From assembly GCA_947172415.1 (NCBI GenBank), contig OX359189.1, forward strand, positions 1,758,501 through 1,822,500: DNA of 64,000 nt. Direction: 5' to 3'. The position numbers and the translations under genes are program-made. Every line of letters begins with the position of its first letter. Positions within the stretch are counted from its first letter, which is position 1. The notes below the pieces were generated by a model. That model was given only the letters and a program-made list of their open reading frames with translations. It had not been told where the DNA came from and did not search any database. Shown piece after piece: positions 2,189-62,080 of this stretch. The stretch comes from Chondrosia reniformis. Taxonomy: Eukaryota > Porifera > Demospongiae > Chondrillida > Chondrillidae.

Positions 2189-3026
2189 GTATCTCTCACC
2201 ATACATTAAATTTGTATGCAAGAATCTAATGTACATTTAGTGCTGTAACTCTGTCAATCGGAAAGATGTGAAGCTGAAACTTGCTGTCAACATTCACAGA
2301 CATTCATAAAACATATCCAAAGAGTTTTACAAATTTTGATGTTCACTCATATTTGCCCTATCTCTCACCATACGTACATTAAATTTGTATGCAAGAATCT
2401 AATGTACATTTAGTGCTGTAACTCTGTCAATTGGAAAGATGTGAAGCTGAAACTTGCTGTCAACATTCACAGACATACATAAAACATATCCAAAGAGTTT
2501 TACAAATTTTGATGTTCACTCATATTTGCCCTATCTCTCACCATACGTACATTAAATTTGTATGCAAGAATCTAATGTACATTTAGTGCTGTAACTCTGT
2601 CAATTGGAAAGATGTGAAGCTGAAACTTGCTGTCAACATTCACAGACATCCATAAAACATATCCAAAGAGTTTTACAAATTTTGATGTTCACTCATATTT
2701 GCCCTATCACTCACCATACATTAAATTTGTATAGCAGAATCTAATGTACATTTAGTGCTGTAACTCTGTCAATTAGAAAGATGGGAAGCTGAAACTTCCT
2801 GTCAGCATTCACAGCTATCCTTAAAGCATATCCAAAGAGTTTTGCAAATTTTGATGTTCACTCATATTTGCCTTATCTCTCACCATACATTAAATTTGTA
2901 TACAAGAATCTAATGTACATTTAGTGCTGTAACTCTGTCAATTGGAAAGATATGAAGCTGAAACCTCTTGGCTGTATGCACATATAGCTATACAGTATAT
3001 CCTGCTAGTTTTGTAAAATTTCAAAA
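2189..3026 (-). repeat. Satellite subfamily B block, left of E1
   Basis: About five monomers of 169-173 bp, the reverse-complement orientation of subfamily A. The A/C boxes appear inverted: CTCTCACCATAC for GTATGGTGAGAG, AGCATTCACAGAC-like segments, and AATGTACATT retained. Some monomers carry an extra CGTA (CATACGTACATT) that makes TACGTA. The last monomer, from about 2964, is strongly diverged (CTCTTGGCTGTATGC) and leads into element E1. Confidence 0.9.
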
Positions 3027-3689
3027 AAGGATACCCGAGTTACTGCAGATCCAAAAATACCATATTCTAAAGTATTGAAGATTCGCCAACCACAAGCGTT
3101 TTCATAGGCAATTACTTTATTTAAATAGAAGATAAAACCTTATAATAGTAGGCCTACCTGGACACATCTCTATGGTGGTTGCGGTTCCCATAGAGGTTGG
3201 TAGCGCTTAGACTCTGAAGCTGTCTCCTAATCGGTTGGTGCCATAGAGACGTGCTCACCAATAATCCGGATTTCGGGGGGGTTCCACGTAATGTGGGATT
3301 GGCATCTGATATCTTAGGATTCATATGAGTCGGCCATATCGAGAAGAACTGGTTCTTCTCACGCAAGTGACACCCAAAGCTCAACTCGGCAGAGCGTTAC
3401 CACCGATCCCGGCCTCTGAGCGTCGTGGATGGTAGCGTTCGGTATGGTCCAATTTTTTTCCTTTGGAGTTTCTTTAGCAGTCGATTGGCGATTTTTCACT
3501 TTAGCGACATCCATATATTATAATATGGACAGATACTACTTCAAAACAATCAAGTATTACAGAGTGAATATCCACGTGCATTAAAATCTTTAAAAGCGTT
3601 CTCGTCATTCAAATATACATATAACAGTAACGTATTTTCAATATTCCCTTCTCTAGGTCGGCCATTTATATTATTACGAAACTCCCGTA
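3027..3689 (-). repeat. Complex element E1 (minus), inserted in satellite B
   Basis: A non-satellite sequence of about 663 bp interrupts a B monomer. Its conserved core is 3145-3452, GC-richer than the AT-rich satellite. Core features: complementary ends (TGGAC at 3159-3163 with GTCCA at 3447-3451, extended by CAT/ATG across one bulged A); a perfect dyad with 9-nt arms GAGAAGAAC/GTTCTTCTC at 3341-3360; inverted CTCTATGG/CCATAGAG; and palindrome GTAGGCCTAC. On the minus strand the core ends in CAG|GTAGGC, a splice-donor consensus, and AATAAA follows about 40 nt later. A 51-codon ATG frame lies at 3359-3514 and a longer open frame without a useful ATG at 3154-3384. I do not recognise a protein family. 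The five minus copies are almost identical (two variable sites noticed, near 3632 and 3690). Confidence 0.85.
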
Positions 3690-4709
3690 AATTAAATTTC
3701 TATACAAGAATCTAATGTACATTTAGGGCTGTAACTCTGTCAATTGGAAAGATGTGAAGCTGAAACTTGGTGTTAGCATTCACAGACATCCTTAAAGCAT
3801 ATCCAAAGAGTTTTACAAATTTTGATGTGCACTCATATTTGTCCTATCTCTCACCATACATTAAATTTGTATAGCAGAATCTAATGTACATTTAGTGCTG
3901 TAACTCTGTCAATTGGAGAGATGTGAAGCTGAACCTTGCTGTCAGCATTCACAGACATCCTTAAAGCATATCCAAAGAGTTTTACAAATTTTGATGTGCA
4001 GTCATATTTGTCCTATATATCTCTCACCATACATTAAATTTGTATAGCAGAATCTAATGTACATTTAGTGCTGTAACTCTGTCAATTGGAGAGATGTGAA
4101 GCTGAACCTTGCTGTCAGCATTCACAGACATACATAAAGCATATCCAAAGAGTTTTACAAATTTTGATGTTCACTCATATTTGCCCTATCTCTCACCATA
4201 CGTACATTAAATTTGTATGCAAGAATCTATTGTACATTTAGTTCAATAACTCTGTCAATTGGAAAGATGTGAAGCTGAAACTTGTTGTCAGCATTCACAG
4301 ACATACATAAAGCATATCAAAAGAGTTTTACAAATTTTGATGTTCACTCATATTTGCCCTATCTCTCACCATACGTACATTAAATTTGTATGCAAGAATC
4401 TATTGTACATTTAGTTCAATAACTCTGTCAATTGGAAAGATGTGAAGCTGAAACTTGTTGTCAGCATTCACAGACATACATAAAGCATATCCAAAGAGTT
4501 TTACAAATTTTGATGTTCACTCATTTTTGCCCTATCTCTCACCATACATTAAATTTGTAAAGCAGAATCTAATGTACATTTAGTGCTGTAACTCTGTCAA
4601 TTGGAAAGATGTGAAGCTGAAACTTGTTGTCAGCATTCACAGACATCCATAAAACATATCCAAAGAGTTTTACAAATTTTGATGTTCACTCATATTTGCC
4701 CTATCTCTC
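3690..4709 (-). repeat. Satellite subfamily B block, right of E1
   Basis: About six B monomers, some with the extra CGTA in CATACGTACATT. Variants such as GTTCAATAACTCTG replace the usual GTGCTGTAACTCTG near 4245 and 4420. The block switches to subfamily C at CTATCTCTCGAGTTATAGAG. Confidence 0.9.
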
Positions 4710-7097: not shown

Positions 7098-7760
7098 AAG
7101 GATACCCGAGTTACTGCAGATCCAAAAATACCATATTCTAAAGTATTGAAGATTCGCCAACCACAAGCGTTTTCATAGGCAATTACTTTATTTAAATAGA
7201 AGATAAAACCTTATAATAGTAGGCCTACCTGGACACATCTCTATGGTGGTTGCGGTTCCCATAGAGGTTGGTAGCGCTTAGACTCTGAAGCTGTCTCCTA
7301 ATCGGTTGGTGCCATAGAGACGTGCTCACCAATAATCCGGATTTCGGGGGGGTTCCACGTAATGTGGGATTGGCATCTGATATCTTAGGATTCATATGAG
7401 TCGGCCATATCGAGAAGAACTGGTTCTTCTCACGCAAGTGACACCCAAAGCTCAACTCGGCAGAGCGTTACCACCGATCCCGGCCTCTGAGCGTCGTGGA
7501 TGGTAGCGTTCGGTATGGTCCAATTTTTTTCCTTTGGAGTTTCTTTAGCAGTCGATTGGCGATTTTTCACTTTAGCGACATCCATATATTATAATATGGA
7601 CAGATACTACTTCAAAACAATCAAGTATTACAGAGTGAATATCCACGTGCATTAAAATCTTTAAAAGCGTTCTCGTCATTCAAATATACATATAACAGTA
7701 ACATATTTTCAATATTCCCTTCTCTAGGTCGGCCATTTATATTATTACGAAACTCCCGTA
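7098..7760 (-). repeat. Complex element E2 (minus)
   Basis: Near-identical copy of E1, offset +4071, with core 7216-7523. It carries AACATATT and CCCGTACATT at the two variable sites where E1 has AACGTATT and CCCGTAAATT. Dyads, complementary core ends and the donor-like CAG|GTAGGC are all preserved. Confidence 0.85.
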
Positions 7761-29686: not shown

Positions 29687-30349
29687 AAGGATACCCGAGT
29701 TACTGCAGATCCAAAAATACCATATTCTAAAGTATTGAAGATTCGCCAACCACAAGCGTTTTCATAGGCAATTACTTTATTTAAATAGAAGATAAAACCT
29801 TATAATAGTAGGCCTACCTGGACACATCTCTATGGTGGTTGCGGTTCCCATAGAGGTTGGTAGCGCTTAGACTCTGAAGCTGTCTCCTAATCGGTTGGTG
29901 CCATAGAGACGTGCTCACCAATAATCCGGATTTCGGGGGGGTTCCACGTAATGTGGGATTGGCATCTGATATCTTAGGATTCATATGAGTCGGCCATATC
30001 GAGAAGAACTGGTTCTTCTCACGCAAGTGACACCCAAAGCTCAACTCGGCAGAGCGTTACCACCGATCCCGGCCTCTGAGCGTCGTGGATGGTAGCGTTC
30101 GGTATGGTCCAATTTTTTTCCTTTGGAGTTTCTTTAGCAGTCGATTGGCGATTTTTCACTTTAGCGACATCCATATATTATAATATGGACAGATACTACT
30201 TCAAAACAATCAAGTATTACAGAGTGAATATCCACGTGCATTAAAATCTTTAAAAGCGTTCTCGTCATTCAAATATACATATAACAGTAACATATTTTCA
30301 ATATTCCCTTCTCTAGGTCGGCCATTTATATTATTACGAAACTCCCGTA
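29687..30349 (-). repeat. Complex element E3 (minus)
   Basis: Copy of E1 at offset +26,660, with core 29805-30112. It matches E2 at both variable sites (AACATATT, CCCGTACATT). All inverted repeats and the CAG|GTAGGC end are intact. Confidence 0.85.
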
Positions 30350-33242: not shown

Positions 33243-33905
33243 AAGGATACCCGAGTTACTGCAGATCCAAAAATACCATATTCTAAAGTATTGAAGATTC
33301 GCCAACCACAAGCGTTTTCATAGGCAATTACTTTATTTAAATAGAAGATAAAACCTTATAATAGTAGGCCTACCTGGACACATCTCTATGGTGGTTGCGG
33401 TTCCCATAGAGGTTGGTAGCGCTTAGACTCTGAAGCTGTCTCCTAATCGGTTGGTGCCATAGAGACGTGCTCACCAATAATCCGGATTTCGGGGGGGTTC
33501 CACGTAATGTGGGATTGGCATCTGATATCTTAGGATTCATATGAGTCGGCCATATCGAGAAGAACTGGTTCTTCTCACGCAAGTGACACCCAAAGCTCAA
33601 CTCGGCAGAGCGTTACCACCGATCCCGGCCTCTGAGCGTCGTGGATGGTAGCGTTCGGTATGGTCCAATTTTTTTCCTTTGGAGTTTCTTTAGCAGTCGA
33701 TTGGCGATTTTTCACTTTAGCGACATCCATATATTATAATATGGACAGATACTACTTCAAAACAATCAAGTATTACAGAGTGAATATCCACGTGCATTAA
33801 AATCTTTAAAAGCGTTCTCGTCATTCAAATATACATATAACAGTAACATATTTTCAATATTCCCTTCTCTAGGTCGGCCATTTATATTATTACGAAACTC
33901 CCGTA
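33243..33905 (-). repeat. Complex element E4 (minus)
   Basis: Copy of E1 at offset +30,216, with core 33361-33668. It combines AACATATT (as E2/E3) with CCCGTAAATT (as E1), a recombinant-looking pairing of the two variable sites. Confidence 0.85.
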
Positions 33906-45439: not shown

Positions 45440-46102
45440 AAGGATACCCGAGTTACTGCAGATCCAAAAATACCATATTCTAAAGTATTGAAGATTCGCC
45501 AACCACAAGCGTTTTCATAGGCAATTACTTTATTTAAATAGAAGATAAAACCTTATAATAGTAGGCCTACCTGGACACATCTCTATGGTGGTTGCGGTTC
45601 CCATAGAGGTTGGTAGCGCTTAGACTCTGAAGCTGTCTCCTAATCGGTTGGTGCCATAGAGACGTGCTCACCAATAATCCGGATTTCGGGGGGGTTCCAC
45701 GTAATGTGGGATTGGCATCTGATATCTTAGGATTCATATGAGTCGGCCATATCGAGAAGAACTGGTTCTTCTCACGCAAGTGACACCCAAAGCTCAACTC
45801 GGCAGAGCGTTACCACCGATCCCGGCCTCTGAGCGTCGTGGATGGTAGCGTTCGGTATGGTCCAATTTTTTTCCTTTGGAGTTTCTTTAGCAGTCGATTG
45901 GCGATTTTTCACTTTAGCGACATCCATATATTATAATATGGACAGATACTACTTCAAAACAATCAAGTATTACAGAGTGAATATCCACGTGCATTAAAAT
46001 CTTTAAAAGCGTTCTCGTCATTCAAATATACATATAACAGTAACGTATTTTCAATATTCCCTTCTCTAGGTCGGCCATTTATATTATTACGAAACTCCCG
46101 TA
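45440..46102 (-). repeat. Complex element E5 (minus)
   Basis: Copy of E1 at offset +42,413, with core 45558-45865. It combines AACGTATT with CCCGTACATT, the fourth combination of the two variable sites. Confidence 0.85.
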
Positions 46103-48323: not shown

Positions 48324-49349
48324 TCTTTTGTTAAAGAAAATTGCGTAATACTATATATGGCCGACCGTTAGAAGGTATAATATTATAATAAAGACAGAAA
48401 TTCCATACTATATCTGAAAATCTAGAATACTTTCCAATTTTTTATACATATGGATGTGCACTCTGTAGTACTTGATTGTTATTGAAGTACTATCTATCCA
48501 TAAATTTTATATGGATCTCGTTAAAGTGAAATTTCGTCAATCGACAGCCAACGAAACTCCAAAGAAAAAAAGTTGGACCATACGCTACCATCCACGACGC
48601 TCATAGGCCGGGATCGGTGGTAACGCTCTGCCGAGTTGAGCTTTGGGTGTCACTTGCGTGAGAAGAACCAGTTCTTCTCGATATGGCCGACTCATATGAA
48701 TCCTTAAAGATATCAGATGCCAATCCCACATTACGTGGAACCCCCCCGAAATCCGGATTATTGGTGAGCACGTCTCTATGGCACCAACCGATTAGGAGAC
48801 AGCTTCAGAGTCTAAGCGCTACCAACCTCTATGGGAACCGCAACCACCATAGAGATGTGTCCAGGTAGGCCTACTATATAAGGTTTTTCGCTTCTATTTA
48901 TATGAAGTTTTGTCCAAAGAAAACGGTTGTGGTTGGGACCTTTTTTAATATATTTCTCGTTATTTCCAGATCAGTGAATTGTTTCAAGCAAGTTTAAAGA
49001 CATAGGCAGTATTAGTGGTTCACCTGAAAACTGGGAAAAGCGAAAAAATCCTGTAAGTGTCTTGATGGGCCGAGGAGAACGACTTTTCTGATCCCAATTA
49101 TTTTCGAGAAATCGTCAATTTATTCCACTTTAATTCCTGACCAGTGAATCGTTCCAAGCAATTTTACACACATACGCAGTATTTCCAATACATCTCAAAA
49201 CTGTGGCAAATGGATAAAAGCCTGTATGTGTCTTGGTGGAGGGAGGAGAGCGACTTTTCATGATACAGAAAACTAGAGATAGTGAGAGGGTCCTATATTT
49301 ATCGCCTGTACGATATTAATGTCTATGATCGATATTTCAACTAGGCCGC
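48324..49349 (+). repeat. Complex element E6 (plus, long subfamily)
   Basis: A plus-strand relative of E1-E5, about 1.03 kb. The core at 48573-48877 is almost identical to the minus-strand copies apart from CAT for CAG, a 2-bp insertion (CCTTAAAGAT) and a 5-bp deletion in ACCATACGCTACC. Flanks on both sides are clearly more diverged. CAG|GTAGGC at 48862-48870 is followed by TTATTTCCAG|ATCAG at 48969, so a 105-bp GT-AG intron is possible. Two GACCAGTGAATC/GATCAGTGAATT repeats lie downstream, each followed by TCCAAGCAA- or TTCAAGCAA-type sequence. An ATG frame of 61 codons covers 48683-48868. No known domain is recognised. Confidence 0.82.
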
Positions 49350-49777: not shown

Positions 49778-50803
49778 TCTTTTGTTAAAGAAAATTGCGT
49801 AATACTATATATGGCCGACCGTTAGAAGGTATAATATTATAATAAAGACAGAAATTCCATACTATATCTGAAAATCTAGAATACTTTCCAATTTTTTATA
49901 CATATGGATGTGCACTCTGTAGTACTTGATTGTTATTGAAGTACTATCTATCCATAAATTTTATATGGATCTCGTTAAAGTGAAATTTCGTCAATCGACA
50001 GCCAACGAAACTCCAAAGAAAAAAAGTTGGACCATACGCTACCATCCACGACGCTCATAGGCCGGGATCGGTGGTAACGCTCTGCCGAGTTGAGCTTTGG
50101 GTGTCACTTGCGTGAGAAGAACCAGTTCTTCTCGATATGGCCGACTCATATGAATCCTTAAAGATATCAGATGCCAATCCCACATTACGTGGAACCCCCC
50201 CGAAATCCGGATTATTGGTGAGCACGTCTCTATGGCACCAACCGATTAGGAGACAGCTTCAGAGTCTAAGCGCTACCAACCTCTATGGGAACCGCAACCA
50301 CCATAGAGATGTGTCCAGGTAGGCCTACTATATAAGGTTTTTCGCTTCTATTTATATGAAGTTTTGTCCAAAGAAAACGGTTGTGGTTGGGACCTTTTTT
50401 AATATATTTCTCGTTATTTCCAGATCAGTGAATTGTTTCAAGCAAGTTTAAAGACATAGGCAGTATTAGTGGTTCACCTGAAAACTGGGAAAAGCGAAAA
50501 AATCCTGTAAGTGTCTTGATGGGCCGAGGAGAACGACTTTTCTGATCCCAATTATTTTCGAGAAATCGTCAATTTATTCCACTTTAATTCCTGACCAGTG
50601 AATCGTTCCAAGCAATTTTACACACATACGCAGTATTTCCAATACATCTCAAAACTGTGGCAAATGGATAAAAGCCTGTATGTGTCTTGGTGGAGGGAGG
50701 AGAGCGACTTTTCATGATACAGAAAACTAGAGATAGTGAGAGGGTCCTATATTTATCGCCTGTACGATATTAATGTCTATGATCGATATTTCAACTAGGC
50801 CGC
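49778..50803 (+). repeat. Complex element E7 (plus)
   Basis: Tandem copy of E6 at offset +1454, with core 50027-50331. It shares the 5-bp core deletion of E6. The candidate GT-AG intron is at 50319-50423. Confidence 0.82.
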
Positions 50804-52244: not shown

Positions 52245-53275
52245 TCTTTTGTTAAAGAAAATTGCGTAATACTATATATGGCCGACCGTTAGAAGGTATA
52301 ATATTATAATAAAGACAGAAATTCCATACTATATCTGAAAATCTAGAATACTTTCCAATTTTTTATACATATGGATGTGCACTCTGTAGTACTTGATTGT
52401 TATTGAAGTACTATCTATCCATAAATTTTATATGGATCTCGTTAAAGTGAAATTTCGTCAATCGACAGCCAACGAAACTCCAAAGAAAAAAAGTTGGACC
52501 ATACCGAACGCTACCATCCACGACGCTCATAGGCCGGGATCGGTGGTAACGCTCTGCCGAGTTGAGCTTTGGGTGTCACTTGCGTGAGAAGAACCAGTTC
52601 TTCTCGATATGGCCGACTCATATGAATCCTTAAAGATATCAGATGCCAATCCCACATTACGTGGAACCCCCCCGAAATCCGGATTATTGGTGAGCACGTC
52701 TCTATGGCACCAACCGATTAGGAGACAGCTTCAGAGTCTAAGCGCTACCAACCTCTATGGGAACCGCAACCACCATAGAGATGTGTCCAGGTAGGCCTAC
52801 TATATAAGGTTTTTCGCTTCTATTTATATGAAGTTTTGTCCAAAGAAAACGGTTGTGGTTGGGACCTTTTTTAATATATTTCTCGTTATTTCCAGATCAG
52901 TGAATTGTTTCAAGCAAGTTTAAAGACATAGGCAGTATTAGTGGTTCACCTGAAAACTGGGAAAAGCGAAAAAATCCTGTAAGTGTCTTGATGGGCCGAG
53001 GAGAACGACTTTTCTGATCCCAATTATTTTCGAGAAATCGTCAATTTATTCCACTTTAATTCCTGACCAGTGAATCGTTCCAAGCAATTTTACACACATA
53101 CGCAGTATTTCCAATACATCTCAAAACTGTGGCAAATGGATAAAAGCCTGTATGTGTCTTGGTGGAGGGAGGAGAGCGACTTTTCATGATACAGAAAACT
53201 AGAGATAGTGAGAGGGTCCTATATTTATCGCCTGTACGATATTAATGTCTATGATCGATATTTCAACTAGGCCGC
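52245..53275 (+). repeat. Complex element E8 (plus), core without the 5-bp deletion
   Basis: Plus-strand copy with core 52494-52803. Unlike E6/E7 it keeps ACCATACCGAACGC, matching the minus copies, so it is closer to the ancestral state. The 51-codon ATG frame homologous to that in E1-E5 is open at 52432-52587. A candidate intron lies at 52791-52895. Flanking C monomers equal those right of E6 and E7. Confidence 0.83.
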
Positions 53276-55917
53276 TTTTATTAGATGTCTGTGAATGCTG
53301 ACACAAAGATTTAGCTTCATATCTCTCCATTTGATAGAGTAACAGTCCTCAATGTACATTAAATTCTGCTATACAAAGTTAATGTATTGTGAGAGATAAG
53401 GCAAATATTTTAAGTTTCATCAAAATTTCAAAAACTCATTGGACATGCTCTATAGATGTCTGTGAATGCTAACCCAAAGATTTAGCTTCATATCTCTCCA
53501 TTTGATAGAGTGACAGCCCTCAATGTACATTAAATTCTGCTATACAAAGTTAATGTATTGTGAGAGATAGGGCAAAATTTAAGTTTCATCAAAATTTCAA
53601 AAACCCATTGAACATGTTTTATAGATGTCTGTGAATGCTTATACAAAGATTTAGCTTCATATCTCTCCATTTGATAGAGTGACAGCCCTCAATGTACATT
53701 AAATTCTGCTATACAAAGTTAATGTATTGTGAGAGATAGGACAAATTTTAAGTTTCATCAAAATTTCAAAAACCCATTGGACATGTTTTATAGGTGTCTG
53801 TGATTGCTTATACAAAGATTTAGCTTCATATCTCTCCATTTGATAGAGTAACAGCCCTCAATGTACATTAAATTCTGCTATACAAAGTTAATGTATTGTG
53901 AGAGATAGGACAAATATTTTAAGTTTCATCAAAATTTCAAAAACTCATTGGACATGCTCTATAGATGTCTGTGAATGCTAACCCAAAGATTTAGCTTCAT
54001 ATCTCTAGCTCCATTTGATAGAGTGACAGCCCTCAATGTACATTAAATTCTGCTATACAAAGTTAATGTATTGTGAGAGATAAGGCAAATATTTTAAGTT
54101 TCATGAAAATTTCAAAACTCATTGGACATGCTCTATAGATGTCTGTGAATGCTAACCCAAAGATTTAGCTTCATATCTCTCCATTTGATAGAGTGACAGC
54201 CCTCAATGTACATTAAATTCTGCTATACAAAGTTAATGTATTGTGAGAGATAGGGCAAAATTTAAGTTTCATCAAAATTTCAAAAACCCATTGAACATGT
54301 TTTATAGATGTCTGTGAATGCTTATACAAAGATTTAGCTTCATATCTCTCCATTTGATAGAGTGACAGCCCTCAATGTACATTAAATTCTGCTATACAAA
54401 GTTAATGTATTGTGAGAGATAGGACAAATTTTAAGTTTCATCAAAATTTCAAAAACCCATTGGACATGTTTTATAGGTGTCTGTGATTGCTTATACAAAG
54501 ATTTAGCTTCATATCTCTCCATTTGATAGAGTAACAGCCCTCAATGTACATTAAATTCTGCTATACAAAGTTAATGTATTGTGAGAGATAGGACAAATAT
54601 TTTAAGTTTCATCAAAATTTCAAAAACTCATTGGACATGCTCTATAGATGTCTGTGAATGCTAACCCAAAGATTTAGCTTCATATCTCTAGCTCCATTTG
54701 ATAGAGTGACAGCCCTCAATGTACATTAAATTCTGCTATACAAAGTTAATGTATTGTGAGAGATAGGGCAAATTTTAAGTTTAATCAAAATTTCAAAAAC
54801 TCATTGGACATGCTCTATAGATGTCTGTGAATGCTAACCCAAAGATTTAGCTTCATATCTCTCCATTTGATAGAGTGACAGCCCTCAATGTACATTAAAT
54901 TCTGCTATACAAAGTTAATGTATTGTGAGAGATAAGGCAAATATTTTAACTTTCATGAAAATTTCAAAAACTCATTGGACATGCTCTATAGATGTCTGTG
55001 AATGCTAACCCAAAGATTTAGCTTCATATCTCTCCATTTGATAGAGTGACAGCCCTCAATGTACATTAAATTCTGCTATACAAAGTTAATGTATTGTGAG
55101 AGATAGGACAAATATTTTAAGTTTCATCAAAATTTCAAAAACCCATTAAACATGTTTTATAGATGTCTGTGAATGCTTATACAAAGATTTAGCTTCATAT
55201 CTCTCCATTTGATAGAGTGACAGCCCTCAATGTACATTAAATTCTGCTATACAAAGTTAATGTATTGTGAGAGATAAGGCAAATATTTTAAGTTTCATGA
55301 AAATTTCAAAAACTCATTGGACATGCTCTATAGATGTCTGTGAATGCTAACCCAAAGATTTAGCTTCATATCTCTCCATTTGATAGAGTGACAGCCCTCA
55401 ATGTACATTAAATTCTGCTATACAAAGTTAATGTATTGTGAGAGATAGGACAAATTTTAAGTTTCATCAAAATTTCAAAAACCCATTGGACATGTTTTAT
55501 AGGTGTCTGTGATTGCTTATACAAAGATTTAGCTTCATATCTCTCCATTTGATAGAGTAACAGCCCTCAATGTACATTAAATTCTGCTATACAAAGTTAA
55601 TGTATTGTGAGAGATAGGACAAATATTTTAAGTTTCATCAAAATTTCAAAAACTCATTGGACATGCTCTATAGATGTCTGTGAATGCTAACCCAAAGATT
55701 TAGCTTCATATCTCTAGCTCCATTTGATAGAGTGACAGCCCTCAATGTACATTAAATTCTGCTATACAAAGTTAATGTATTGTGAGAGATAGGACAAATA
55801 TTTTAAGTTTCATCAAAATTTCAAAAACCCATTGAACATGTTTTATAGATGTCTGTGAATGCTTATACAAAGATTTAGCTTCATATCTCTCCATTTTATA
55901 GAGTGACAGCCCTCAAT
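53276..55917 (+). repeat. Satellite subfamily C block, right end of the satellite
   Basis: About 15 C monomers with a 683-bp (four-monomer) higher-order repeat: CTCTAGCTCC at about 54,006 and 54,689, and ACAAATTTTAAG at 53,741 and 54,424. The array stops abruptly at CCCTCAAT, where it joins a truncated gene copy with only 2-3 nt of microhomology. Confidence 0.92.
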
Positions 55918-56300
55918 AGAAGCAGCGTCAAGTCTACCAGTTATCAAAGTGGAAAGATGGCATCCCATTCTAGTTCACTACTCAAACTCAGCACTTCATT
56001 GGTTGCTACGGTGTCTATCTTGCCTTTCCTCCATCTCCCACTAATTACTAGGACTTGGTTCATCACTTTTGTCAGTGTAAAAGATATCATCCTCTCTTGG
56101 CCATCATAGAGGGAAATTCTACCCCATACACCAAATTCTAAGCTAAAGCATGTCAGGGAAGTTGAATACTTGCCTCCACGACTTCCTACAAAGATTTTCC
56201 TATTGAGGTATGTAGCAGTTGGGTAGGTAATTCCTTTTAGCATGTCCGGCTCCCTAGACCAAGCTGCGGAGGACAGCTGCAGCTTCTGTTGCTGATATTT

Positions 56301-56470
56301 CTGTGACATCAAAATAAGTATAAATATTGCAAGTAAATATTGTCTGTCTGTCTATCTATATACATATTTTTCTTTTTACTTTGTTTCTTGTACAGTGCAA
56401 CACGGGGCAAGTAGTCCTACTGTGATGTATGCTCACTATAAATTCGTAGTGAAATGTTTAGTGCATTTAC
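56301..56470 (-). other. Intron 2 of copy 1, with TCTG/TCTA microsatellite
   Basis: Predicted GT-AG intron of 170 bp from GTAAAT to GATGTCACAG. It holds a short TCTG/TCTA-type microsatellite at about 56339-56364. The matching intron of copy 2 (59000-59199) is about 30 bp longer. Confidence 0.55.
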
Positions 56471-56973
56471 ATTGTGTTTCTCTAAAGCTGTTACCACGTC
56501 ATCATGTTTCATGTGTCTTGCCAAATCAAGAGCATTCGGATGAAAAACAGACACACAACTTTCAGGGTCACTAAGATTAACTGTTTTTCTGGGATCTGCT
56601 CCATATCTTAAGAGGGCTTCCACCATTTCCACTTTCCCGATAGCTGCTGAAAGTTGTAGGGGAGTGAAGAAAGGTTGCATATGGGCTCTCACGTCCACTT
56701 CAGCTTTACCCTTTTCAATGAGTAGAGGAACAATTTCAGCACAATCATCCAGTAATGCTGCTAGATGAAGAGGACTATGGTTTATACCATATTTCTCCTT
56801 ATAGTCCTTTGGAGTATTCACAGAGGCTCCTTCATTAAGTGCACTTTGGACCCATAGTGGCTCTTTCCACCCCACAAACAGACCAAGGTAGCGGTGTTTT
56901 GTCACTTCTGGTGGCTGGTACGCCTCAGAATTAGTTGGAATACTGAAAACTGGACCTAATGGTTCACCTAAAC
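56471..56973 (-). CDS. Exon 2 of copy 1: ankyrin-repeat domain, intact
   Basis: This exon encodes residues 6-173 of the predicted protein. Ankyrin repeats are seen at about 44-60 (weak), 71-100 (SPLHLAALLDD...LLIEKG), 107-136 (FTPLQLSAAIG...LLRYGADP) and 150-173 (NALDLARHMKHDD). They match the TPLHLAA...LL..GAD signature of the family, a protein-protein interaction scaffold. The donor is CACAAT|GTAAAT, phase 0. The frame is open throughout, unlike the same exon of copy 2. The binding partner is unknown. Confidence 0.75.
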
Positions 56974-57303
56974 CTATAAAACGATATTGTATAAGTATTA
57001 AGAATCACAAGAAGACAAAGATTCCTGTGAAACAGCTGTCTGGCCCAGTGAGAGAAGAAGAAACTCTTCTATCCTCATCCAATGCTCTAACTAGTAGGTT
57101 TAGTCTCCTATATATAGGTATTTACTCAAAAGTAGATGTCAAGGTAGATGTAGCTTGTAAGAAAGACAAATAACAGTACGTATCAATAAATACACTGTAT
57201 TGTGCAACCATTTGTATACAGTACGTGTATTACGTATGTTCCCATATTAAATTTCCAGTCTATGGGGGTTTGTTAGCAAAGTACTTATAGCCATTGAACT
57301 CAC

Positions 57304-57319
57304 CTTTCGCTCTGGCCAT
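57304..57319 (-). CDS. Exon 1 (start exon) of ankyrin-kelch copy 1
   Basis: AACAATGGCC gives a strong start context. The 16-nt coding part (MARAK plus one base) ends at AAAG|GTGAGT, a canonical donor. It joins in phase 1 to TTTATAG|GTTTAGG of exon 2. The arrangement is identical in copy 2 with one residue changed (MAREK). Confidence 0.65.
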
Positions 57320-57330
57320 TGTTCACAATC

Positions 57331-58012
57331 CTGGTGACAATCTTCGATCTTCAGTGACTCCCAAAGTCGAAAGATGACCCTTTCCAAAAATAAGTTCGAT
57401 GCAGTTAGAAGAAATCCTTATTCTATTATTTACCTCATTGTCAAGATATATATATAATTGACCTGATTAATTAAATATGAAGTCCACAAAGTATATGCCC
57501 AAATACTCAATACTATTTGTCTGATCTTTCTTTCATGTGATGAGTGGTACTGTATAGGTGTAATATGGTTCCTTTGACCTGTATTTTGTTTGATAACAAT
57601 TTGGGTGTAGGTCTGGTCCAATTTGCCTCCATTTTTATGAACAAGTATTGGTGTTGCCAAGAGAAAGGGAAGACCCTGATTCAAGTCTTCACTCGGAAGC
57701 TGCTTATAATCTAGCTCAAATTTACAGGAACAGTGGAAATTTACCTTTAGCAAGACACATGTTACGTATATATTGCTCTGTTTGATTTGTGAATTCCTTG
57801 CTTGTAGCATTGAATTAAATTTTAAAATCTATTCTTATACGTAGTTTATGTCTGTTTGCATTATTCTTTGGTCCTAATATTTCAGTATCCTATTACACAC
57901 TGTATATTTTGTAGCTTAATTAATTGCAAAGCACTACAAAAACAAACAAGAAAGTATACAAATAAAAACAGACTAATTTGAAGTATTGTATGTACAGTAA
58001 CATGAGTATTTG
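57331..58012. other. Spacer between the two gene copies
   Basis: Copy 1/copy 2 homology ends at TTCACAATC (57330). Beyond it lie the 5' side of copy 1 and the 3' side of copy 2. A minus-strand open frame of 126 codons at 57430-57810 is GC-richer in its middle and ends one segment at ACAG|GTCAAAG, so it might include an unrecognised or decayed exon. It has no domain I can name, and nothing else is supported. Confidence 0.3.
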
Positions 58013-58999
58013 TTAAAATTCACAGCTTTCAACAGTTTTGAGTGGTTCATGGGAATTCCTACATCCACCAATGACAAACATCTGCTGTCTATGGCCGCAA
58101 TGCACTGTTACAACAGAAGGTTTCCACCTTGCCTCAGTTATATTACCAACGTGAGTCCAGTGATGGGCATAGTGGTCAAAGAGGTACACGTCAGTCTTCT
58201 CTGCTTCACTATCATCACAACCTCCCACGGCAACAATGGAGTCATTTGCAAACACCAATCCACTTTGCTTTAGTGGTGTCTTGGGAAATGGATTCCAAAT
58301 TGATTTCAACTTTGGATCTTGTTCTGATTCCTGATTCACACCCTGGCTGCTTACAATTGAACGAATGTCTGATAACTTTGCTGCATATAATGTTTTCTCC
58401 ACATCCAGATCTGAAGCTTCAATTCCTTCACAAAGTCCTAATACAAGTAGTTCATTTGTAACTGTGCACTTCATGTACCAAGACTTGAGGGGAAACGGGC
58501 AAATTTCAAACCAGGAGGAAAATGGATTGGAGGCCTTTAGTACTTCAACAGATGCCAAAAGTCTTAGATTTTTATCTGTTCCTCCCGCGACAACAACGTA
58601 ATCTTCAAAGCTAATAGAAGCAGCGTCAAGTCTACCAGTTATCAAAGGTGGAAAGATGATATCCCATTCTAGTTCACTACTCAAACTCAGCACTTCATTG
58701 GTTGCTACGGTGTCTATCTTGCCTTTCCTCCATCTCCCACTAATTACTAGGACTTGGTTCATCACTGTTGTCAGTGTAAAAGATGTCATCCTCTCTCGGC
58801 CATCATAGAGGGAAATTCTACCCCACACACCAAATTCTAAGCTAAAGCATGCCAGAGAAGTTGAATACTTGCCGCCACGACTTCCTACAAAGATTTTCCC
58901 ATTGAGGTATGTAGCAGTCGGGTAGGTAATTCCTTTTAGCATGTCCGGCTCCCTAGACCAAGCTGCGGAGGACAGCTGCAGCTTCTGTTGCTGATATTT
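58013..58999 (-). CDS. Exon 3 of copy 2: kelch-repeat domain, intact (328 aa)
   Basis: One open frame of 329 codons including stop, entered at GATGTCACAG|AAATATCAG in phase 0. Kelch-type blades are visible: ITYPTATYLNGKIFVGSRGG near the start, VVVAGG, and near the C terminus SIVAVGGCDD...DVYLFDHYAHHWTHVG and MFVIGG...VESCEF. The Gly-Gly doublets followed by Tyr and Trp at kelch spacing suggest a beta-propeller of about five to six blades, normally a protein-binding surface. No BTB or F-box domain is visible, and the N-terminal partner is an ankyrin block. The minus-strand frame remains open upstream into the intron, to 59113, but that extension has no kelch or ankyrin character. Confidence 0.8.
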   Translation of the reverse strand, partial: KYQQQKLQLSSAAWSREPDMLKGITYPTATYLNGKIFVGSRGGKYSTSLACFSLEFGVWGRISLYDGRERMTSFTLTTVMNQVLVISGRWRKGKIDTVATNEVLSLSSELEWDIIFPPLITGRLDAASISFEDYVVVAGGTDKNLRLLASVEVLKASNPFSSWFEICPFPLKSWYMKCTVTNELLVLGLCEGIEASDLDVEKTLYAAKLSDIRSIVSSQGVNQESEQDPKLKSIWNPFPKTPLKQSGLVFANDSIVAVGGCDDSEAEKTDVYLFDHYAHHWTHVGNITEARWKPSVVTVHCGHRQQMFVIGGCRNSHEPLKTVESCEF

Positions 59000-59199
59000 C
59001 TGTGACATCAAAATAAGTATACATATTGCAAGTAAATATTGTCTGTCTGTCTGTCTATCTATGTACATATTTTTCTTTTTACTTTGTTTCTTGTACAGTG
59101 TAACACAGGGCAAGTAGTCCTACTGTGATGTATGCTCACTATACATTCAACATAATGATAATAATGGTTACTATATAGTGAAATGTTTAGTGCATTTAC

Positions 59200-59704
59200 A
59201 TTGTGTTTCTCTAAAGCTGCTACCACATCATCATGTTTCATGTGTCTTGCCAAATCAAGAGCATTCGGATGAAAAACAGACACACAACTTTCAGGGTCAC
59301 TAAGATTAACTGTTTTTCTGGGATCTGCTCCATATCTTAAGAGAGCTTCCACCATTTCCACTTTCCCGATAGCTGCTGAAAGTTGTAGGGGAGTGAAGAA
59401 AGGTTGCATATGGGCTCTCACATCCACTTCAGCTTTACCCTTTTCAATGAGTAGAGGAACAATTTCAGCACAATCATCCAGTAATGCTGCTAGATGAAGA
59501 GGACTATGGTTTATACCATATATTTCTCCTTATAGTCCTTTGGAGTATTCACAGAGGCTCCTTCATTAAGTGCACTTTGGACCCATAGTGGCTCTTTCCA
59601 CCCCACAAACAGACCAAGGTAGCGGTGTTTTGTCACTTCTGGTGGCTGGTACGCCTCAGAATTAGTTGGAATACTGAAAACTGGACCTAATGGTTCACCT
59701 AAAC
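59200..59704 (-). pseudogene. Exon 2 of copy 2: ankyrin domain with 2-bp frameshift
   Basis: Same boundaries and splice sites as exon 2 of copy 1 and very similar sequence. The 2-bp gain at about 59520 destroys the frame before the first strong ankyrin repeat. After the lesion the ankyrin frame continues to 59200, with only conservative changes such as VVTAL to VVAAL, so the break looks young. Confidence 0.7.
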
Positions 59705-60002
59705 CTATAAAACGATATTGTACAAGTATTAAGAATCACAAGAAGACAAAGATTCCTGTGAAACAGCTGTCTGTCCCAGTGGGAGAAGGAGAAACTCTTC
59801 TATCCTCATCCAATGCTCTAACTAGTAGGTTTAGTCTCCTATATATAGGTATTTACTCAAAAGTAGATGTCAAGGTAGATGTAGCACGTAAGAAAGACAC
59901 TGTATTGCGCAACCATTTGTATACAGTACGGGTATTACGTATGTTCCCATTTATTAGTCTATGGGGGTTCGTTAGCAAAGTACTTATAGCCATTGAACTC
60001 AC

Positions 60003-61884: not shown

Positions 61885-62080
61885 TATCTATATGGCAAAT
61901 ATATGAGTAAATATCAAAAATTTGCAAAACTCTTTGGATATGTTTTATGGATGTCTGTGAATGCTAACACCAAATGCAAGTTTCAGCTTCATATATATAT
62001 CTGTCCATTTGACAGAGTTGCAGCATTAAATGTACATTAGATTCTAGATCTGGTATACAAACTTATATGGTGAGATACAT
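61885..62080 (+). repeat. Lone satellite monomer (B-related) in an intron
   Basis: One monomer reads as the reverse complement of subfamily B: TTTGCAAAACTCTTTGGATATGTTTTATG, ATGTCTGTGAATGCT, TTTCAGCTTCATAT, CCATTTGACAGAGTTGCAGC, AATGTACATTAGATTC, GGTATACAA and TGGTGAGAT follow in satellite order. It is about 195 bp with small AT insertions. It stands alone, about 6 kb from the array edge, inside an intron. Confidence 0.85.

Follow-up and report, generated by a model that had tools for sequence, protein, structure and literature searches.

A near-invariant core of about 305 bp, carried by eight elements in the 64-kb window of Chondrosia reniformis DNA analyzed here, is probably a multi-copy gene for a structured non-coding RNA of the same length, transcribed by RNA polymerase III (Pol III) from a type 3 (U6-like) upstream promoter. 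We infer transcription of the core, the polymerase used and a function for the RNA from the sequence of the copies and their surroundings.

A first-pass annotation had described a GC-richer core of about 305 bp in eight satellite-embedded elements, and the copies were recovered exactly where it placed them. When 3145-3452 was used as a BLASTN query against the window, eight matches were returned, five of them (E1 to E5) identical to the query at 308 of 308 positions; E8 is 99.0% identical and E6 and E7 97.4%. From BLASTN and alignment, the candidate RNA of E1 occupies 3148-3452 on the plus strand, 305 nt from GTAGGCC to GGTCCAA. Its plus-strand counterparts lie at 7219-7523 (E2), 29808-30112 (E3), 33364-33668 (E4) and 45561-45865 (E5), and those on the minus strand at 48573-48874 (E6), 50027-50328 (E7) and 52494-52800 (E8, 307 nt), with E6 and E7 sharing a 5-nt deletion near the 3' end. 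The higher GC content of the core also held up (52% against 30-37% in the surroundings), with a G+C fraction of 0.523 in E1 and 0.516 in E8 and of 0.296 to 0.372 in the flanks. By their sequences, E1-E5 and E6-E8 are each recent duplicates. One site varies among E1-E5 over 723 positions that take in the core with 180 bp on its left and 235 bp on its right; E6 and E7 match throughout 1,040 positions, the 5 nt being all that sets E8 apart from them. Because each group is near-identical, flanks included, the eight copies count as only two independent sequences.

Between these two lineages the core has barely changed. A gapped alignment of E1 with E8 gives 304 identities against a single substitution and one 2-nt indel, and 5 nt are additionally missing from the E6 and E7 cores; these are the very differences listed in the first-pass annotation. 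The drift that it reported in the flanks, length changes included, is seen downstream (3460-3690 in E1), where E1 and E8 are homologous and agree in about 79% of ungapped columns, and the alignment holds 173 identities, 47 substitutions and 25 gap columns. The flank is far more diverged, with 47 substitutions in 220 aligned positions compared to 1 in 305 in the core (Fisher p 2.3e-18). Identity is 0.90-1.00 in the 15 windows of 20 columns that cover 3150-3447. The edges are less uniformly sharp than had been claimed, since the upstream fall is more gradual (0.25-0.80 in 7 windows over 3010-3149) and the downstream one is ragged, with some flank windows remaining high (0.45-0.95 in 12 windows over 3448-3681).

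The satellites that carry the elements supply a yardstick for this divergence. The window is AT-rich (67%), and most of it is taken up by satellite arrays, of three related types whose periods are about 168-173 bp. Satellite B, with a period of 173 bp here, lies to the left of E1 (2190-2964), and satellite C, with a period of 171 bp, to the right of E8 (53282-55917); C is about 79-81% identical to B and runs on the opposite strand. E1-E5 and E6-E8 are in opposite orientation to one another, as are their carriers, and the flank identity of about 79% matches that between the two satellite families. Elements and satellites therefore seem, from their shared orientation and divergence, to have descended together. 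By eye only, the junction between element and satellite falls at the same monomer phase in both subfamilies. The observed/expected ratio of CpG is 0.09 in the main satellite array (7919-28800) and 0.87-1.67 in the cores and flanks of the embedded elements. Upstream of E6, and hence also of E7 and E8, a stretch occurs twice at a spacing of 170-171 bp, which is the satellite period (48947-49048 with 49117-49218, 73% alike, and 49034-49088 with 49205-49259, 80% alike). The two repeats were not recognizable as satellite in 12 comparisons (z -0.9 to 2.1).

Both lineages carry candidate promoter elements upstream of the core at matching positions. An 18-bp block extends from -62 to -45, counted from the same G at the core start, and 17 of its 18 positions in E1 (3086-3103, plus strand) are common to E8; we call it PSE-like on position and conservation, as distinct from a motif match or protein binding. 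Its pattern occurs eight times in the window, every time at one of these elements: besides E1, at 7157-7174 (E2), 29746-29763 (E3), 33302-33319 (E4), 45499-45516 (E5), 48919-48936 (E6), 50373-50390 (E7) and 52845-52862 (E8). Over the first 65 bp upstream of the core (E1, plus sense), E1 and E8 share 50 identities, with 14 substitutions and 2 gap columns. Upstream homology is significant from 3086 on, exactly where the PSE-like block begins: BLAST aligns 3086-3144 at 80% (E 3e-11), and the piece ranked next has E 0.09. To the left of the block, E1 resembles diverged satellite (z 5.0 against satellite C, 2.9 against B).

A TATA box stands at -28 in both lineages, reading TTTAAATA in E1 (3120-3127, plus strand) and TATAAATA in the other; it falls at 48895-48902 in E6 and, placed by the -28 offset, at 52821-52828 in E8. 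The stretch from the TATA box to the start is itself largely conserved between E1 and E8, and two 1-nt gaps in its alignment cancel out. In the published description of SNAPc promoters (PMC9652321), the PSE lies about 40-70 bp upstream of snRNA start sites and Pol III is directed by a TATA box located below the PSE; the positions of the PSE-like block and TATA box agree with that description. Rfam identified no snRNA gene in the window.

At the other end, a run of seven T, a candidate Pol III terminator, directly follows the core in E1 (3453-3459, plus strand) and follows one C in E8. In E6 the run lies one base past the core, at 48565-48571 on the minus strand (A on the plus strand). Because the TATA box is at -28 and the T7 run starts no more than one base after the core end, the edges of the conserved core match the predicted ends of the transcript. 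A TATA match at -24 to -35 combined with T6 no more than 20 nt from the end arose in 0.06% of 20,000 simulated flanks, or 0.1% when either strand was allowed; these figures are post hoc, the motifs having been picked after inspection, and serve as a guide and not as a test. The core contains no TTTT on either strand, a weak point, as TTTT is also missing from 55% of the 305-bp stretches sampled in the window. The opposite strand was considered as the transcript and rejected: it folds as well as the sense strand or better but lacks a TATA match over the 77-78 bp that precede it in E1 and in E8. The antisense core is followed by T4 (E1) or T5 (E8) at 10-11 nt.

In the sense direction, the core folds at -109.5 kcal/mol, a modest stability relative to shuffled sequences (z about -1.9, compared to -2.2 to -2.6 for the antisense core). 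One predicted sense fold, with 30% of positions unpaired, is common to E1 and E8, and the lineage differences fall in its unpaired parts, the 2-nt indel and the substitution occupying a bulge and a triloop. In the antisense fold the indel is likewise unpaired, and the substitution lies within a helix of E1. This comparison rests on two independent sequences and offers no countable covariation. The 5-nt deletion of E6 and E7 removes helix bases of the predicted fold at a cost of about 8 kcal/mol; given this, some copies may be nonfunctional. A terminal stem formed by pairing of the core ends (TGGACACAT/ATGGTCCA) was rejected, as its predicted pair probability is 0.0 in E1 and E8 and at most 0.06 in E6. 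The motifs GGTTGGTAGCG and GGATGGTAGCG, 91% alike, stand near the two ends of the core (3195-3205 and 3427-3437), and the 11-mer ATATGGCCGAC occurs once in an element flank (48355-48365) and once in a core (48681-48691).

Rfam returned no match at gathering level over the whole window, one match by E-value (limit 5) over 2940-3700, to a bacterial sRNA (E 4.7) in the upstream flank outside the core, and none by E-value (limit 10) over 52480-52830. ARAGORN detected no tRNA in the window. With consensus sequences for the A and B boxes, each strand had a best ordered score of 16 of 22, a value that 298 of 300 shuffles attained in the sense and 282 of 300 in the antisense direction; a relaxed B consensus is matched at 8 of 9 positions once inside the core. 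Exact core patterns had no match in viral and prokaryote contig collections, which says little given what those collections hold. Among the titles and abstract openings listed, in a search with most subscription journals outside it, we found no paper describing this element.

Placed beside known systems, the locus most nearly takes after the SNAPc-dependent type 3 Pol III genes, U6, 7SK and RPPH1 (PMC9652321), which likewise have a PSE between -70 and -40, a TATA box near -28 and a 3' T-run; internal A and B boxes here are no better than chance. Unlike those genes, the core has no Rfam family, its copies sit in satellite arrays and its promoter is one that we infer. Animal telomerase RNA, described for sponges as well (PMC8480181), is comparable as a fast-evolving non-coding RNA but differs in having a template: neither core strand contains CTAACC or CCCTAA, a search that assumes TTAGGG telomeres.

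The closest alternative is itself a special case of the RNA gene: the core could belong, unrecognized, to a known and fast-evolving class of RNA, 7SK or RNase MRP for example, and have diverged too far for Rfam, in which case its family would not be new. We consider this rather unlikely, yet treat it as a serious rival. 7SK is about 300 nt long, and RNase P and RNase MRP RNAs are of a length comparable to the core, so the size of about 305 nt, the type-3-like promoter and the T-run would suit 7SK and MRP alike; the core shares length and predicted promoter class with all of these RNAs, and the 3' T-run with 7SK. MRP and 7SK are, moreover, described as often undetectable in invertebrate genomes (PMC2770079). 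Against such an identity, there is no Rfam match up to an E-value of 10 over 52480-52830, and the hallmarks that were looked for are missing. A repeated GAUC is given as the hallmark of 7SK stem-loop SL1 (PMC10083321), whereas the core has a single GATC, at position 258 of 305. The RNase MRP motif GAAAGTC is absent from both core strands.

The first-pass annotation had left the choice between selection on nucleotides and a conversion tract limited to the core. Of the two, and with two independent sequences to judge from, nucleotide-level constraint on a non-coding unit fits best, because the 2-nt indel lies inside the longest open reading frame of the core and the core edges match the predicted start and stop. 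We regard as unlikely the other option, that gene conversion or a recent exchange homogenized a neutral core between the subfamilies and left the flanks diverged. The eight copies do lie within 64 kb, E1-E5 and E6-E8 being recent duplicates, and a single event would yield the same pattern of identity. Against conversion, the core edges coincide with the start predicted 28 bp from the TATA box and with the T7 stop, an agreement reached, post hoc, by 0.1% of simulated flanks, and conservation extends beyond the core to the PSE-like block, which keeps 17 of 18 positions and a fixed spacing. A random tract is hard to square with edges that agree with the predicted ends of the transcript, but an RNA-templated tract would account for these edges as well as for the uniform core.

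It is improbable that the core is a SINE, a MITE or another mobile element inserted into satellite-borne sequence. Like the tRNA- and 5S-derived SINEs, it is short, multi-copy and possibly transcribed by Pol III; it is also GC-richer than its surroundings, and in E1 it lies between the arms of two inverted pairs, both imperfect (79% and 86%) and away from its edges. Unlike those SINEs, it matches no tRNA or 5S RNA (ARAGORN, Rfam) and its ordered A and B boxes are at chance level. The core edges themselves bear no inverted pair, and none of the six pairs listed for E6 corresponds to those of E1. Because both flanks are homologous between the subfamilies, the elements represent one inherited locus and not independent insertions. 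Least probable of all are a conserved exon and a DNA-level function, for instance as an origin, an insulator or a centromere-protein site: the core does sit within a satellite array and conservation alone is no proof of transcription, but a DNA element gives no reason for edges at a TATA box and a T-run, and the longest of the nine open reading frames of at least 25 aa that overlap 2950-3700 is a 76-aa antisense frame with a TTG start, which would shift because the 2-nt lineage indel falls inside it.

The right end of the window is gene-like. Of five open frames scanned there with Pfam, three gave a domain, namely kelch, ankyrin and fibronectin III in one frame each, and two gave none; the introns appear by eye to be short. 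Judged by these genes and introns alone, the DNA would be taken for that of an animal, possibly a sponge. One of the introns apparently holds a lone, diverged satellite monomer (61917-62045, 74% identical to the satellite part of the query). At its end the satellite array runs into an apparent partial duplicate of the neighboring kelch/ankyrin gene (55917-57400 and 58615-60000). By eye, this duplicate starts with AATAGAAGCAGCGTCAAGTCTACCAG, as does a stretch inside the longer copy, and the reading frames match.

Returning to the Pol III gene that we favor, its expression and spread could have proceeded as follows. The RNA would be read from the plus strand in E1-E5 and from the minus strand in E6-E8. 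Through the TATA box at -28 and the PSE-like element at -62, SNAPc and Brf2-TFIIIB would be brought to the promoter, and transcription by Pol III would begin at about GTAGGCC and end in the T7 run next to GGTCCAA. Once lodged in the 170-bp satellite, the gene would have been copied along with it. As satellite and flanks drifted to about 79% identity, selection would have held the RNA nearly fixed, with gene conversion possibly helping. As to its cellular role, we can only guess at an RNA that is part of a nuclear RNP, comparable to 7SK or RNase MRP.

A wider reading, which we put forward tentatively and hold to be less probable than the RNA gene as such, is that the core represents a new family of U6-promoter-type Pol III RNAs of about 305 nt that is amplified along with the satellite arrays in which it resides. 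Satellite turnover would supply the gene copies, and selection or RNA-templated homogenization would keep the transcribed part alone constant. If the core is transcribed, it would constitute an unannotated family of structured RNA genes within satellite DNA, a part of the genome that is usually masked, and would show how a Pol III gene can multiply through satellite expansion. For invertebrates, whose RNA annotations often lack 7SK and MRP, it could then also fill a gap.
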